Below are positions 12,619-34,107 of a stretch of DNA of 44,103 bases, piece after piece (positions within the stretch are counted from its first letter, which is position 1; the number at the start of each line of letters is the position of its first letter). A program made the translations under genes and the position numbers. Below the pieces are notes generated by a model. That model was not told the origin of the DNA, did not search any database, and saw only the letters and a list, made by a program, of their open reading frames with translations. The DNA comes from an uncultured Bacteroidales bacterium (lineage in GTDB: Bacteria; Bacteroidota; Bacteroidia; Bacteroidales; UBA4417): the NCBI GenBank assembly GCA_903946925.1, contig CAJAXK010000024.1, positions 1 to 44,103 on the forward strand, read 5' to 3'.

Positions 12619-13398
12619 CTACCCAACTTCCCCATTCATCCATGCCTTGAATGCTGCTGTTTTAACCCTGCTTACTACAATTTCGAGTTTGGGATCAGCA
12701 GCAATTTCAACTTTAAGCTTGAAATTAAAGTAATTGTGTACTTTTTGGATGGCATCGCCCGAAATAATATACTGTCGGTTTACCCTGAAAAATAGTTTGG
12801 GATCAAGTTTAGCTGATAAATCTTCGATAGAATAGGGTATAATAAACCTGTTATTGTCGTGGGTAAGTAGAAATACCTCTTTCTCTTCAGCGTAAAAGCA
12901 AGCAATTTCCGAAACTTTAACCGGAATCATCGCATTCCCTTTATTTATCAGAAAACGTTCCTTATACGATGCTTTACCTGGCATTTGCAGGTTTCTGAGC
13001 ATCTCGTAGAGGTTGTTGTTTGGGTTACTATCACCATAGTATTGTTTCAGGTTATGAAATTTTTGTAATGATGCTTTCAGCTTTTCCCTGTTCACAGGTT
13101 TCAACAGATAATCAATACTGTTAAACTCAAATGCCTGCAAAGCATATTCGTCGTAAGCCGTGGTAAATATCACGGGAGTAATAACTTCACATTCGTCGAA
13201 AATGCTAAAGCTTTTGCCATCAGCCAATTGAATATCCAAAAGTATTAAATCGTAAACCGGTTTTAATTTCAAATGTTGAACAGTTGCCGAAACAGTATCG
13301 ATTGGGCCATGAATTTCAGCTTCTGGTTCTATTTCAAGCACTAACTGACTAAGCCTTTTAGCTGCAAGTTCTTCGTCTTCAACAATAAGGATTTTCAT
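12619..13398 (-). CDS. LytTR-family response regulator
   Basis: REC (MKILIVEDEELAAKRL, YDLILLDIQLADG, FTTAYDEYALQAFEFNSIDYLLKPV) plus LytTR (FFRVNRQYIISGDAI). Confidence 0.93.
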   Translation of the reverse strand: MKILIVEDEELAAKRLSQLVLEIEPEAEIHGPIDTVSATVQHLKLKPVYDLILLDIQLADGKSFSIFDECEVITPVIFTTAYDEYALQAFEFNSIDYLLKPVNREKLKASLQKFHNLKQYYGDSNPNNNLYEMLRNLQMPGKASYKERFLINKGNAMIPVKVSEIACFYAEEKEVFLLTHDNNRFIIPYSIEDLSAKLDPKLFFRVNRQYIISGDAIQKVHNYFNFKLKVEIAADPKLEIVVSRVKTAAFKAWMNGEVG

Positions 13399-13410: not shown

Positions 13411-13617
13411 TTATTAAGGTGTTCAAGGTTCAATGCTTCGCGTTTAAGGGTTCAATGTTTCGCGTTCAAGGGTTCAATGTTTAATTGGCTTCGCCGTTCA
13501 ATTGGCTTCGCCGTTCAAATGTTCGCTTGTTCAAATGTTCGCTTGTTCAATTGTTCGCTTGTTCAATTGTTTTATTGCTAAAACGTTCAATTGTTTGCTT
13601 GTTCAATTGTTACAACT
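13411..13617. repeat. Degenerate tandem repeat GTTCAATTGTTCGCTT (16-, 17- and 22-bp variants)
   Basis: At least ten GTTCAA-initiated units, e.g. GTTCAATTGGCTTCGCC and GTTCAAATGTTCGCTT x2. Confidence 0.9.
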
Positions 13618-13625
13618 ACCGCTTC

Positions 13626-13713
13626 AAATCCCCACATCCTCAAATCCCCACATCCTCAAATTCCTACATCCCCACATTTTCAAATTTTCAAATTATCTCA
13701 TTTTCAAATTTAA
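13626..13713. repeat. 8-bp-period degenerate tandem repeat (ACATCCTC/AAATTTTC; sense to the flanking gene: GAAAATTT/GGGGATGT)
   Basis: AAATCCCC ACATCCTC AAATCCCC ACATCCTC AAATTCCT ACATCCCC ACATTTTC AAATTTTC AAATTATC TCATTTTC AAATTTAA, in constant 8-bp register. Confidence 0.93.
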
Positions 13714-15400: not shown

Positions 15401-15580
15401 TGTTCGAATTCTTAAATTTGTTGCTTTGTTGTTGTTACTAAACTGTTTTCAGGCATATTTTTTCGGGTCCAAGTTAAAAGTGCGGAACTGCTGACAGTGT
15501 ATTTCAAATCAATTTTTCAATCCCGTTCCAAGTATTCAGCTCTGAAACATCTTACTTTCCATCCCCCTCCCAACCCAAAC

Positions 15581-15643
15581 CTTTGACCTTTGACCTTTGA
15601 CCTTTGCCCTTTGCCTTTTGCCCTTTGCCTTTTAACTTTTGAG
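15581..15643. repeat. 7-bp-period tandem repeat (CTTTGAC/CTTTGCC)
   Basis: CTTTGAC x3, CTTTGCC x2, TTTTGCC, CTTTGCC, TTTTAAC, TTTTGAG in constant 7-bp register. Confidence 0.93.
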
Positions 15644-15648
15644 CTTTC

Positions 15649-18009
15649 CTAAAAATGAATCCTATACTGCATCATTGGGAAAAACCCTAACTGATAAACA
15701 TTGGTAACTTCGTTTTTCGAAGGACTGTAGGTTTGCATTAGAATATTGTCGTGGTCGGTAAAATTTTCGATGTAAAACACCCATTCCTGCGAAACTTTGC
15801 GCCAATTAAGCCTGTACCCAAATTTTATATCCGCTTTAAAAAACGCATCAAACTGCTCGCTATATGCTTTTGTTTCATCGTATTTGGTTGCACCTGCGTT
15901 CTGCGAAGCTTCCAAATCAATTGGCGTGTAACGTTTGCCTCCGGCATAAGTCATTTTAAAATCAATATTGAAAGTTGATTTGCTATTTATGGTAAACTCT
16001 TTGCCAAACAATACATTAGCTACGTAATTTCCATTAAATGCAGTGTTCCTTTCCATCCCGTCGCTGCCTTTGTATTTTGATTCGAACAAGGATAGCGTTG
16101 CCAGGTAATAGTAGTTTTTATAAAAAAACCGCTCTGCTGTTAGTTCCAATCCGTAGTTTTGGCCGGTTCCGGTATTAATAAGGCTATCCTGAGCCGCAAC
16201 GCCCCAGCCGGCACCGGTATTCAACATGCTGAACGAAGTACTGTTTTTTTCTACCGGCACATCATAAAGTGTTTGATAGTACATTTCGGCCTTCAAACGA
16301 GTGTTTGCGGTTATTGAATTGTTGTACCCTAACACAAACTGGTGCGATTTGGTGAAACCAAGATCGTTGTTGGTTAGAATTAGTGAACCATCATCCATTT
16401 GTGTACCAAGGTAATAGGTTGACAAGGCTTGTGTACGGGAATGGAGTCCATACCCAAAACTCAGTTTATGTTTTGTATTTATCTGCCAGTTTGCACCAAG
16501 CCGTGGCTCAACGCTGGCTGCCCCGTTAAGGTCGAAATAACTGAAATGTAAGCCGGGCACAAGGCTATATTTTTCGTTAAAACGATACGTTGCCTGTACG
16601 TATGGCTGATATAAAGTAACCCCTTCGGCCAAACTTTTGCTGTCGTCAATCAATGCGCGCAAGGTATTGGTTTCGCTGTCGTAAACTTTCGACAACAGGT
16701 CAAAACCCATGCGATCAACAAGAAATCCAGCCCTTGCCGACAAGCGGCTATTGTATTTTTTATGCAGGAAACCGCTCAGCGAGGTACGGAATTCGGCATA
16801 GTTGTGGTCAACATAAGGATGCGGGATGCCAGTAACATCAAGCGTATCAATGGTTGTTCCCCCTTTTTGGTAAATCCCGGAAAGTATGATTTTGTAGTAC
16901 GTATGTTCGTTCATGAAACGAGTGTACGAAATTCCGGTTGCGCCCATCCTCGAACTGTTTACCAAATCCTGACCTTCGCCTGAATACATATCCTGTTCAT
17001 TGCCATTTTGGCTGTCGAGCATGGCTATTTCGCTGTCGCCACCCAACCCGAAAAACGTTATCTTTCCTTTTTTAACCGGGAAATTAAGCTTGAACGAAAG
17101 GTCTTTGTATTTTGGGATCCCGGTAGTTCCCAAATCTATTATTCCATCCATAAGTTCCAAAGTGGAATAGCGGAAATTGGCCAAGTATGAAGCCTCATGT
17201 TTCTTGCTGAAAGGACCTTCGGCACCAACCTCAAAACCATTGAAACCAACCTGAAAAAGTTGTTCGTGTTTTTGGTTGTTGCCATTTCGCATATTCAGGT
17301 CGAAAACGCCGCTCAGCGCATTGCCATATTCGGCAGGGAAAGCACCGGTGAAGAAATCGCTGTTTTCGAGCAGGTTGTTGTTTAACATGCCAACAGGGCC
17401 GCCGGTTGTTCCGCCTTCAGCAAAATGGTTTGGGTTTGGTATATCAATATCTTCGAGCCTCCAGAGCAATCCACTGGGCGAATTGCCACGGATAATAATA
17501 TCGTTGCGCTGGTCGTTGGCCGAAGAAACACCGGCATAGTTCATGGCCATACGGGCTACATCACCTCGGCTTCCGGCATATTTTTCGGTCTCTTCAACCG
17601 AAAAAGTACGGGCGCTTACGGTTGCCATTTGGTTGCGGGTCTGATCCTTGCGGGCGGAACCTGTAATTACTACACCGCTGCTCATGGTTACATTTTCCTC
17701 AAGTTCCACTTCAAGCACAACTTCTTTCACCGAATTGACAATTATCCCTTGAAAAGTGGCTGGTTTATACCCGATATAACTAACCTGAATGCTTTGACGG
17801 CCAATTGCAACCTTTTCGAGACGGAAATTTCCATCGTTGTCGGTAACAGTTCCGGTTAAAGGTTGAACGTCGAGCAGCACCACATTTGCCCCAGGCAAAG
17901 ATGTTTTTGAATCCTTGTCGAAAACGTGCCCGCGGATGGTTTGAACCTGTTGTGCCCAGCCCAAAGCCGAAACAAGGAAAACTAAAGTGAAAATAAATGT
18001 CCTTTTCAT
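15649..18009 (-). CDS. TonB-dependent receptor with carboxypeptidase-like regulatory domain
   Basis: Signal peptide; IRGHVFDKDSKTSLPGANVVLLD; plug region RGDVARMAMNYAGVSSANDQRNDIIIRGNSPSGLLWRLEDIDIPNPNHF; C-terminal beta-barrel. Confidence 0.92.
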   Translation of the reverse strand: MKRTFIFTLVFLVSALGWAQQVQTIRGHVFDKDSKTSLPGANVVLLDVQPLTGTVTDNDGNFRLEKVAIGRQSIQVSYIGYKPATFQGIIVNSVKEVVLEVELEENVTMSSGVVITGSARKDQTRNQMATVSARTFSVEETEKYAGSRGDVARMAMNYAGVSSANDQRNDIIIRGNSPSGLLWRLEDIDIPNPNHFAEGGTTGGPVGMLNNNLLENSDFFTGAFPAEYGNALSGVFDLNMRNGNNQKHEQLFQVGFNGFEVGAEGPFSKKHEASYLANFRYSTLELMDGIIDLGTTGIPKYKDLSFKLNFPVKKGKITFFGLGGDSEIAMLDSQNGNEQDMYSGEGQDLVNSSRMGATGISYTRFMNEHTYYKIILSGIYQKGGTTIDTLDVTGIPHPYVDHNYAEFRTSLSGFLHKKYNSRLSARAGFLVDRMGFDLLSKVYDSETNTLRALIDDSKSLAEGVTLYQPYVQATYRFNEKYSLVPGLHFSYFDLNGAASVEPRLGANWQINTKHKLSFGYGLHSRTQALSTYYLGTQMDDGSLILTNNDLGFTKSHQFVLGYNNSITANTRLKAEMYYQTLYDVPVEKNSTSFSMLNTGAGWGVAAQDSLINTGTGQNYGLELTAERFFYKNYYYLATLSLFESKYKGSDGMERNTAFNGNYVANVLFGKEFTINSKSTFNIDFKMTYAGGKRYTPIDLEASQNAGATKYDETKAYSEQFDAFFKADIKFGYRLNWRKVSQEWVFYIENFTDHDNILMQTYSPSKNEVTNVYQLGFFPMMQYRIHF

Positions 18010-20671: not shown

Positions 20672-20829
20672 AGAGATAATTTATTAAGAATTTACTAGAA
20701 CCGGATTGAAATTACAGATGTTTTCGATACAAGGCAAAACCCGGTTAATTAAAAAGAACGGAATTGCAACAGTTTTTCAAAATCTTCAATCAACCGTATC
20801 GAAGGTTAGTAAAAACCACTCGAAGGGTT

Positions 20830-20925
20830 TCATTTTCACATCCCCAAATTCTCAAATTTTCAAATTCTCACATTACCGCATTACCACATTATCGCATTCT
20901 CACATTATCACATTATCGCATTATC
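20830..20925. repeat. 8-bp-period tandem repeat (ACATTATC/GCATTATC), 12 units
   Basis: TCATTTTC ACATCCCC AAATTCTC AAATTTTC AAATTCTC ACATTACC GCATTACC ACATTATC GCATTCTC ACATTATC ACATTATC GCATTATC, in perfect 8-bp register. Confidence 0.95.
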
Positions 20926-22496
20926 AGCTCCACCAACTTTTGGATAGCCTCGTCGGGATGCAGATTTTTAAACGCAATTTCTTTTCCTTTATATAGAGTT
21001 ACCTGATCCTTGCCGGCCCCAACGTACCCATAATCGGAATCGGCCATTTCGCCTGGTCCATTTACTATACAGCCCATAACGGCAATTTTCAGGCCTTTAA
21101 GATGCCCTGTGGCGGCTTTTACCTGCTGTAATGCGCTTTCGATATCGAAAAGTGTCCTTCCACACGATGGGCATGAAATAAATTCGGTGCGGGTAATGCG
21201 GGCACGGGTGGCTTGCAGGATGGCAAAAGCTGTATTATTAACCGCTTCGGGATTTATATTTGGGGCTGTTGGCCAAATGGCATTACCAATCCCATCAATA
21301 AGCAAACTGCCAAAATCAATGGCACTATTTACCTGAAATTGCAGCAGATCCGAAGTTAAATACTTGTTTTTCAACACTATTGGTTTACTGCTTTCAACAT
21401 CCATTTTATCAAGTTCCCGCCTTAATCCTGAAGCATTTCCTTCGCATATTTCAAGAAGGTGGAAGTTGTGATCGGGCAAATTGCCGACAACAGAAAAATG
21501 TTCGTCAACCAAACAGGTTTTGCCAATTTTTTCAGCCAAAACAGCTACCGGATAATTTCCGCCAATGCCCGAAACGGCTATGGTTTCGCGTTGCCCAAAA
21601 AGCTTTGGTTTGGTAGGTTTCCAACTTATTCCCTTTTGGCCCAGGTTTCGTGCATGATTATATCGTTCGGTAATTGCCAAAGCAACTGGTATTTCGATTT
21701 CGGGCGCTCCTGTGAGCGAAACACGTATGGTATCGCCAATTCCATTTTCGAGTAAGGAGCCAATGCCGGCTGCTGATTTAATAATACCATCCTCGCCATC
21801 GCCAGCTTCGGTAACACCAAGGTGGATAGGGAAGTCCATTTTTTCGGCTGCCATTTTTTCGGCTAACAACCTGGTAGCCTGCACCATTACGCGCACATTG
21901 CTCGATTTTATCGAAAAAACCAAATTTTTGAAATTTTCATTCAGGCAAATCCTGCCAAATTCCAGGGCACTTTCAACCATTCCTTCGGGCGTATCGCCAT
22001 ACCTATCCATAATTCGCCCACTCAGCGAACCGTGGTTGGTGCCAATGCGTATTGCGGTGCCGTTTTGTTTGCAAATTTGCAGCAATGGCCTAAGCCGTTG
22101 GGCTATCCTTTCAAGTTCTTGGTAGTAATCGCGTAAGGTTAATTGGTTGGCCGATATGCGTTTGTCGGTATAATTTCCGGGATTTATCCGTACTTTTTCC
22201 ACAATACCGGCAGCAATTTCGGCAGCGTTTGGGTTAAAATGTATATCGGCAATAAGCGGGACTTTTATCCCTTTCGAGCGTAAGCTTTTCTTAATCAAAG
22301 CCAAATTGTTTGCTTCGGTAATTCCTTGTGCTGTAATGCGCACCATCTCGCATCCGGCATTTACCAGTCGGACACACTGATTGACGGTTGCTCCAATATC
22401 GTTGGTGTCCGTATTGGTCATGGATTGCACCCTTATCGGGTAATTCCCGCCAAGGGGCAGGTCGCTGATGTTTATGGTGCGGGATTGGAAGGACAT
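20913..22496 (-). CDS. ispG: 4-hydroxy-3-methylbut-2-en-1-yl diphosphate synthase (three-domain form)
   Basis: IRVQSMTNTDTNDIGATVNQCVRLVNAGCEMVRIT; large central insert; CPSCGRTLFDIE...IAVMGCIVNGPGE Fe-S ligands. Internal Met (MSFQSRTINIS) preferred over the ORF-track start. Confidence 0.96.
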   Translation of the reverse strand: MSFQSRTINISDLPLGGNYPIRVQSMTNTDTNDIGATVNQCVRLVNAGCEMVRITAQGITEANNLALIKKSLRSKGIKVPLIADIHFNPNAAEIAAGIVEKVRINPGNYTDKRISANQLTLRDYYQELERIAQRLRPLLQICKQNGTAIRIGTNHGSLSGRIMDRYGDTPEGMVESALEFGRICLNENFKNLVFSIKSSNVRVMVQATRLLAEKMAAEKMDFPIHLGVTEAGDGEDGIIKSAAGIGSLLENGIGDTIRVSLTGAPEIEIPVALAITERYNHARNLGQKGISWKPTKPKLFGQRETIAVSGIGGNYPVAVLAEKIGKTCLVDEHFSVVGNLPDHNFHLLEICEGNASGLRRELDKMDVESSKPIVLKNKYLTSDLLQFQVNSAIDFGSLLIDGIGNAIWPTAPNINPEAVNNTAFAILQATRARITRTEFISCPSCGRTLFDIESALQQVKAATGHLKGLKIAVMGCIVNGPGEMADSDYGYVGAGKDQVTLYKGKEIAFKNLHPDEAIQKLVELIMR

Positions 22497-33006: not shown

Positions 33007-34107
33007 ATGAACGTAAACGGAACCCATTATCGCACTATTTGGATGGACAGCCTAACCGGCATAGTAAGCATGATTGACCAAAACGCCCTTCCCTTTGAGT
33101 TTAAGATTTTTGAAGCAAAAAGTTATCGCGAAACCTGCCATGCTATTGTTACCATGGTTACCCGTGGGGCAGGCGCGATTGGTGCTGCAGCCGGATTTGC
33201 CATGGCGCAGGCTTTTTTGGAAGGTGCGGGTTTGGATGTGGAAATGAGAGGGGAGAAGGGCGAGGGGAGAGGGGAGAGCGAAACTATGTATTCGGTGGCG
33301 CAACTTGGTTTTTTTGATCAGGCACGCAAAGAAATAGAAGCTACGCGCCCTACTGCCCGGAACCTGTTTTTTGCCACTGAAAAAGTGTATAATGCCGGAT
33401 TGAAAAGTGTGGATGCTGCTTTACAAGAAGCCCAATTTTTAGCTGATGAAAATATTGCCGATTCGAAAAAAATTGGCGAATACGGCAGCAGACTGATAAA
33501 AAATGGCAGTAAAATACTTACCCATTGCAATGCCGGATGGCTTGGTTTTGTTGATTTTGGAAGTGCATTGGCTCCTTTGTATGTTGCCAAACGGCAAGGG
33601 AAAGATTTTTTTGTTTATACTGACGAAACCCGCCCGCGCAACCAGGGCGCTCGGCTAACCGCCTGGGAATTGCAGAACGAAGACATTCCACACAAAATTG
33701 TTCCCGACAATGCCGGCGCACACTTGATGAGCCATGGATTGGTTGATTTGATAGTTGTGGGTGCCGACCGCATAGCTGCCAACGGCGATACGGCCAATAA
33801 AATCGGGACTTTCGAGAAAGCCATCGTAGCTAAGGAATTTGGGATACCTTTTTATGTTGCCGTACCTTTTTCGACTATTGATTTTTCGATCTCTGATGGG
33901 TCGCAAATCCTTATCGAAGAACGTAGCGAAGACGAAGTATTGTTTTATTCCGGACCAGATTCTGAAGGTATTATGCGGACTATACGTATGGCATCACTTG
34001 GTTCGCACGCCATCAACCCTGCGTTTGACGTAACTCCGGCAAAGTATATTACGGGGTTTATTACAGAAAAGGGGATTTTTTCAGCTGAAGAATTGTCTGG
34101 ATTGTAA
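33007..34107 (+). CDS. mtnA: S-methyl-5-thioribose-1-phosphate isomerase
   Basis: RTIWMDS; MVTRGAGAIGAAAGFAMAQA; EATRPTARNLFFA; LTHCNAGWLGFVDFGSALAPLY; YTDETRPRNQGARLTAWEL; VGADRIAANGDTANKIGTF. Start placed downstream of the promoter. Confidence 0.94.
   Translation: MNVNGTHYRTIWMDSLTGIVSMIDQNALPFEFKIFEAKSYRETCHAIVTMVTRGAGAIGAAAGFAMAQAFLEGAGLDVEMRGEKGEGRGESETMYSVAQLGFFDQARKEIEATRPTARNLFFATEKVYNAGLKSVDAALQEAQFLADENIADSKKIGEYGSRLIKNGSKILTHCNAGWLGFVDFGSALAPLYVAKRQGKDFFVYTDETRPRNQGARLTAWELQNEDIPHKIVPDNAGAHLMSHGLVDLIVVGADRIAANGDTANKIGTFEKAIVAKEFGIPFYVAVPFSTIDFSISDGSQILIEERSEDEVLFYSGPDSEGIMRTIRMASLGSHAINPAFDVTPAKYITGFITEKGIFSAEELSGL

Follow-up and report, generated by a model that had tools for sequence, protein, structure and literature searches.

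Octamer array at a histidine kinase stop codon

The window (the whole 44,103-nt stretch of DNA analysed) carries an array of degenerate octamers at the stop codon of a histidine kinase (HK) gene, and the question raised by this locus is whether the array grew there on its own or belongs to something larger. As shown below, it belongs to a family of degenerate 7-/8-nt tandem arrays that are dispersed through the genome and take a fixed orientation at gene boundaries. The sequence comparison was centered on the window's own genome G000 (6.17 Mb), together with its congener G011 and with G080 from another family of the same order; the gene calls made for this purpose matched the ORF list, and stops were surer than start codons.

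The array occupied positions 13624 to 13711 (first annotated as 13626 to 13713) on the minus strand (NNNATKTG on the minus strand, equal to CANATNNN on the plus strand). It had been proposed by an initial annotation and proved real, with a lag-8 identity of 0.68 against at most about 0.55 in 5000 Markov shuffles. Read on the minus strand outward from the stop, it was composed of eleven octamers, TAAATTTG AAAATGAG ATAATTTG AAAATTTG AAAATGTG GGGATGTA GGAATTTG AGGATGTG GGGATTTG AGGATGTG GGGATTTG, with a progression from TAAATTTG/AAAATGAG/ATAATTTG through AAAATTTG to GGGGATGT/GGGATTTG; its minus (sense) strand was G-rich and devoid of C, the plus strand having 30 C and 0 G in these 88 nt. The inner 28-base block TTTGAAAATGAGATAATTTGAAAATTTG (13681 to 13708, minus strand) was common to many other loci. 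The upstream gene encoded a LytS-type HK (PF06580; 13710 to 14777, minus strand), whose stop codon was the first triplet of the array and whose C-terminus was conserved in congeners, and the downstream gene encoded, as judged from domains, the LytTR response regulator (RR; 12619 to 13398, minus strand) that is the partner in this two-component pair.

A composite repeat region (13421 to 13711) spanned the HK–RR gap, and the octamer array was no more than the one-third of it nearest the HK stop. From the HK stop to the RR start, this composite contained, all on the minus strand, (i) the octamers; (ii) a short unique junction (13612 to 13623) between the octamer array and a GAAC array, which was nearly unchanged in the orthologous gap of G011 and different in paralogous arrays; (iii) a middle array GAACAATT/GAACAAGC of period 8/16 (13513 to 13611), which also lay about midway (0.5) along other co-directional gaps; and (iv) start-proximal arrays of the 17-mer GGCGAAGCCAATTGAAC and the 22-mer GAACGCGAAGCATTGAACCCTT (13421 to 13518).

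Companion arrays in the window

A companion octamer array (20832 to 20926, minus strand; lag-8 identity 0.77 against the same shuffle limit of about 0.55) overlapped the stop of ispG (GcpE; 20913 to 22346, minus strand) and ran from TAATGTG/TAATGCG through AAAATTTG to GGGGATGTG. Both arrays thus started at or inside the stop codon of a minus-strand gene, and they lay 7.2 kb apart, as had been stated. Among the congeners compared, the ispG array was present in G000 and G011 only (window 20913 and L184): IspG of G011 read through a shorter array, while that of G000 was truncated with its stop inside the array and lacked the KQGGDWV-type C-terminal tail of congeners. Since the C-terminus of IspG differed in this way, unit number can alter a protein end; the loss of the tail, with the stop lying in the array, further suggests that arrays may fuse to a gene end via loss of intervening DNA.

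At two unrelated loci (20790 to 20835 in the window and about 17190 to 17240 in L071), the octamer array was followed immediately by an imperfect palindrome of the type AACCCTTCGAGTGGTTTTTTCAACCCTCGAAGTGGTT. Arrays within genes were few; a period-7 GAGAGGG repeat (33246 to 33278) was seen inside a called gene (33007 to 34107, plus strand).

Genome-wide extent and periods

The pattern (CANATNNN)3CANAT had 544 matches in the 6.17-Mb genome and 4 for the reversed control. A total of 149 intergenic arrays of period 7 or 8 were recognized in 1.13 Mb of G000, where other short periods were almost absent. Periodic segments in a 0.97-Mb sample, part of which was picked for containing arrays, likewise had period 7, 8, or multiples of these, with almost nothing at 5, 6, 9, 10, and 13, and shuffles gave none; in the unbiased period spectrum, the baseline of about 24 (G000) or 5 to 7 (G080) at every period was due to included N runs. 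The broad range of mostly short unit lengths that marks slippage-born simple sequence repeats (SSRs) was accordingly not found. Contigs taken without array-based choice harbored 69 arrays in 0.74 Mb under the same orientation rule (see below), and this density of about 93 per Mb leads to an estimate of about 570 arrays in the genome. Many arrays of G000 were located at contig ends (e.g., C378:2, C403:21, C39:49, C44:53, and C79:108); the draft assembly thus probably breaks in arrays, which would make array counts underestimates.

The octamer pattern was detected in 15/16 sampled genomes of the family (all of one genus), the other 14 having 1 to 108 matches compared to 544 in G000, and in 63/197 sampled genomes of the order and 23/198 of the phylum.

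Position and orientation at gene edges

Fifty of the 149 arrays lay no more than 8 nt from a stop, compared to 14.9±2.7 expected under random placement in the same gaps (maximum 24 in 1000 placements), and 14 arrays lay at starts compared to 11.3 expected under the same placement. The sense strand in G000 was G-rich in 50/56 arrays up to 12 nt from stops and C-rich in 30/32 arrays up to 50 nt from starts: at both ends of a gene, the strand leading outward 5′ to 3′ was G-rich and C-poor, and the strand leading inward was C-rich, G-poor, and hairpin-free. This rule was obeyed 25:4 at stops and 14:1 at starts in the unbiased contigs alone, and by single arrays touching one edge 29:1 in G000 and 9:1 in G080; gaps with two oppositely oriented arrays displayed the G-rich and then the C-rich array on the strand read 17:0. 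The period-7 array of the window (CAAAGGT/CAAAAGG on the minus strand; 15579 to 15647), 1 nt from the stop of a TonB-receptor gene (15649 to 18009), followed the same rule with a different word family.

Convergent stops also obeyed the rule (12:1 and 11:4), which is therefore not merely an avoidance of operon polarity. Control of orientation by the replication strand was considered and rejected, its association with contig GC skew being weak (45 vs 32) and far under the gene-edge effect. The rule was weaker in G080, with 22/28 arrays obeying it at stops and 35/48 overall, and two gaps had the opposite order.

Word order, shared blocks, and unit changes

The progression from A/T-rich words outward, initially read at the two sites of the window, held genome-wide: in G000 plus G080, A/T content was higher in the first 24 nt than in the following 48 nt in 18/21 stop octamer arrays, with one tie (p=2.5e-4). 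The order TAAT/AAAATTTG and then GGGGATGTG outward from the stop was significant in 47 arrays, as A-words preceded G-words 25:7 (p=0.002) and T-words preceded G-words 20:5 (p=0.004); a strict T-before-A order was not significant (19:10) and was discarded. A word order was also looked for in period-7 arrays, and none was seen there. When copies were collected, oriented, and compared for word order, as the initial annotation had recommended, orientation was locked to gene edges at about 90%, and the order was conserved; the random orientation and the lack of a common word order characteristic of slippage-born SSRs were absent. New relative to that annotation were the mirror-oriented arrays at starts, the families of period 7, and the composite build of the repeats.

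With up to 3 mismatches allowed, the genome contained 60 copies of the 28-mer TTTGAAAATGAGATAATTTGAAAATTTG and none of the reversed control. Arrays at unrelated loci had unit strings in common: the mean best similarity was 7.72, compared to 5.78±0.14 after shuffling of the unit order and 6.48±0.16 after shuffling within class only, in a set containing a few tandem-duplicated pairs at one locus. G000 and G080 had 18 octamer words in common compared to 2.2±1.3 expected, and 18 heptamer words compared to 12.5±2.7, a small excess. The families occupied fixed positions in co-directional gaps from stop (0) to start (1), namely 0.19 for the octamers, 0.52 for GAACAATT, 0.68 for AACCC, and 0.78 for GCGAAGCA; the junctions between sub-arrays differed at paralogous loci, and thus the composites were not copied whole.

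The HK–RR gap contained repeats in five congeneric species, with words differing in the more distant ones. In G011, whose kinase was 90% identical, the orthologous array was kept with substitutions and an 8-nt unit indel, a whole-unit length change of the kind known from slippage-born SSRs. The same gap in G015, G008, and G010 displayed, as judged by eye, other words starting at or near the stop (CAGAATC/CAGTTTC, GGTTCAA with CCCTTCGC, and GGGTTCC, respectively), the G008 repeat being the least regular; as a set, the congener loci had an excess at period 7/8 and at no other period. This complete change of words at the same site is not predicted by simple copying within one genome. The G010 locus L203 past the HK stop had a long (GGGTTCC)n tract whose G-runs, recurring at 7-nt intervals, might form a G-quadruplex.

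RNA structure and mobile elements

Array-rich co-directional gaps had a median fold z of +0.4, compared to −1.8 for array-free gaps, and folding ruled out both an intrinsic terminator and a hairpin between the two halves (for array strands, the median fold z was near 0). The C-rich strand, and only this strand, fitted the compositional description of Rho utilisation (rut) sites (PMC9160355), being C-rich, G-poor, and unstructured, and in G000 its C>G bubble was continuous. Of 84 G000 arrays, 26 had YC chains of at least 5 per 78 nt, a length reached in essentially none of the array-free gaps; YC dimers with 9 to 13 nt between them were present in arrays at the level expected from composition, and YC chains were no longer than in letter-shuffled arrays. 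It is therefore the composition, and not the period, that is rut-like, and nothing ties the 7/8 period to Rho; a repeat period matched to Rho was ruled out, as letter shuffles did equally well.

G000 harbored a MITE-like family of about 160 to 210 nt with terminal inverted repeats GAGTCCACTCCGA...TCGGAGTGGACTC (39 matches in 1.13 Mb, some inside arrays; loci L078, L080, L100, L113, L115, L138, L179, and others). G080 had a dispersed element with ATAAGATTAGCGACAACATGTTGG in 6 copies in 226 kb, and an octamer array was located 5′ of most copies (L147, L148, L149, L157, and L159). MITE or REP elements would be expected to surround every array with a conserved core bearing terminal inverted repeats; this was not seen in G000 and was seen in part for one G080 element.

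Origin and maintenance of the arrays

Owing to their near-uniform direction and common word order, the roughly 570 arrays look like a family at gene ends that is copied and orientation-controlled, unlike random stutter. As far as sequence can tell, our best guess is that they play a role in transcription at gene boundaries, and the preferred reading, held tentatively and at somewhat below an even chance, is a family that would be spread by recombination and kept in a single orientation by the Rho gate that C-rich RNA would provide on the way into a gene. The blocks in common point to recombination between arrays as the means of spread: existing arrays would serve as the source of new ones and would keep them similar, by gene conversion or ectopic recombination between long repeat tracts of near identity; slippage or unequal exchange would add and remove whole units; and flanking DNA could be deleted up to the gene, the array then supplying the stop codon. 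Less firmly, the single orientation may persist through an effect on transcription: RNA made just before gene entry, whether as a sense leader or as antisense across the 3′ end, is unstructured, C-rich, and G-poor like a rut site, and Rho would halt untranslated or antisense transcription there, sparing the C-poor RNA leaving the gene. The Rho gate is preferred since, placed where transcription enters a gene, it fits the rule and accounts for each of the four edge types. Copying plus a Rho gate does not account for the confinement to periods 7 and 8.

A selected RNA feature apart from Rho is rather unlikely; here, a trailer poor in C and a leader poor in G and rich in A/C would keep untranslated RNA unstructured and without spurious start signals, and arrays would be favored or tolerated in that orientation only. 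This reading would agree with the unusually unstructured state of array-rich gaps, with the fact that sense G is low before starts even in array-free gaps (C 0.187 and G 0.115), and with the many purine-ATG words on the octamer G-rich strand, which would be harmful upstream of starts; however, array-free trailers were not biased toward G over C (0.173 and 0.168) and so gave no sign of a general need after stops, and several G-rich word families were without ATG. The two-array order of 17:0, the unique junctions, the G-rich words, and the common word order would all follow from end-templated insertion, in which intergenic breaks have both 3′ ends extended with G-rich repeats by a polymerase or reverse transcriptase and are then joined; G-rich and then C-rich arrays would result around a unique junction, like head-to-head telomeres, and the mirror orientation at all four edge kinds would be explained as well as by the Rho gate. 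We consider this improbable, because Ku was missing from G000 and from 194/197 genomes of the order, and because by itself it leaves the preference for stops over starts unaccounted for.

Independent local slippage, with chance seeds grown on the spot and words alike through base composition, appears distinctly improbable. The whole-unit indel between G000 and G011, local higher-order units (e.g., CACATCCTCAAATTCC repeated in contig C53), and near-identical duplicated blocks within L103 and L138 are what slippage would leave; the exclusive periods 7/8 and multiples, the orientation lock, the conserved word order, the 60 copies of one 28-mer, and the octamer words common to another family all argue against it. 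Of the initial proposal that the arrays are directional, copied, or templated rather than products of independent slippage, the directional and copied parts stood (orientation, the 28-mer copies, and unit-string similarity above within-class shuffles), and the templated part, e.g., by an RNA template or telomerase-like addition, would be conjecture; the dismissal of slippage was favored by the multi-unit strings in common and has to be qualified by the slippage-like 8-bp indel. Introduction of the arrays by dispersed non-autonomous MITE- or REP-like elements targeting gene ends is very unlikely. The array at the 5′ side of the six-copy G080 element, which has a conserved flank, and the frequent contact of the MITE-like family with arrays in G000 would suit it, but that family was mostly without arrays in G000, had array sequence on both sides at L078, L100, L138, and L123, as if inserted, and 27/31 array gaps of 200 to 350 nt had no dispersed element; carriage by MITEs in G000 was rejected, given that the elements often sit inside arrays.

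Relation to known repeats

The TAACTGA heptamer direct repeats described by MacGregor are intergenic in Beggiatoaceae, Cyanobacteria, and some Bacteroidetes, mostly forward toward the start codon, as in sets from Bacteroidetes, where one further set is reversed directly after the stop (PMC4679880). They resemble the present arrays in their short intergenic heptamer unit, their orientation tied to starts or stops, and the breaking of contigs in repeats; they differ in having one fixed word, in contrast to many degenerate words of periods 7 and 8 with a conserved order here, and the present arrays have a strong stop-codon preference and form composites spanning the gap. TAACTGA was not among the most frequent array words, and the main words were different. 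A survey of prokaryote satellites, in the portion available, covers units of 6 to 8 nt and suspects a transposition-like spread of conserved short-unit satellites (PMC6749651); unit size and local duplication are alike, but that portion contains no orientation, stop-codon, or word-order rule, and Bacteroidetes are absent from its main text. With rut sites, the C-rich strand shares its G-poor, unstructured character and its continuous C>G bubble with YC chains; unlike rut sites, the arrays are tandem-periodic, their C-rich strand lies against rather than along the transcript leaving the gene, and the YC chains are at composition level. No description of multi-word, ordered, stop-anchored arrays was found in the open-licence literature.

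Eukaryotic telomere repeats have a G-rich strand running outward 5′ to 3′ and degenerate 7- to 8-nt units; unlike them, the present arrays are internal, bacterial, and of many word families. A telomere-like process, RNA- or self-templated, that adds G-rich 7- to 8-nt words of a fixed set in a given order to the outward ends of gene blocks would be a long shot. If true, intergenic DNA in many Bacteroidales would be partly its product and would have a readable stop-to-start word order.

Significance

The orientation rule gives clear and cheap predictions. If the account of a copied, orientation-controlled system is true, a large part of the gaps in some Bacteroidales, here with about 93 arrays per Mb, would be such a system and not random spacer, the arrays could change protein C-termini, as with IspG here, and gene edges carrying them would be a new place to seek transcription boundaries in a phylum with poorly understood termination.
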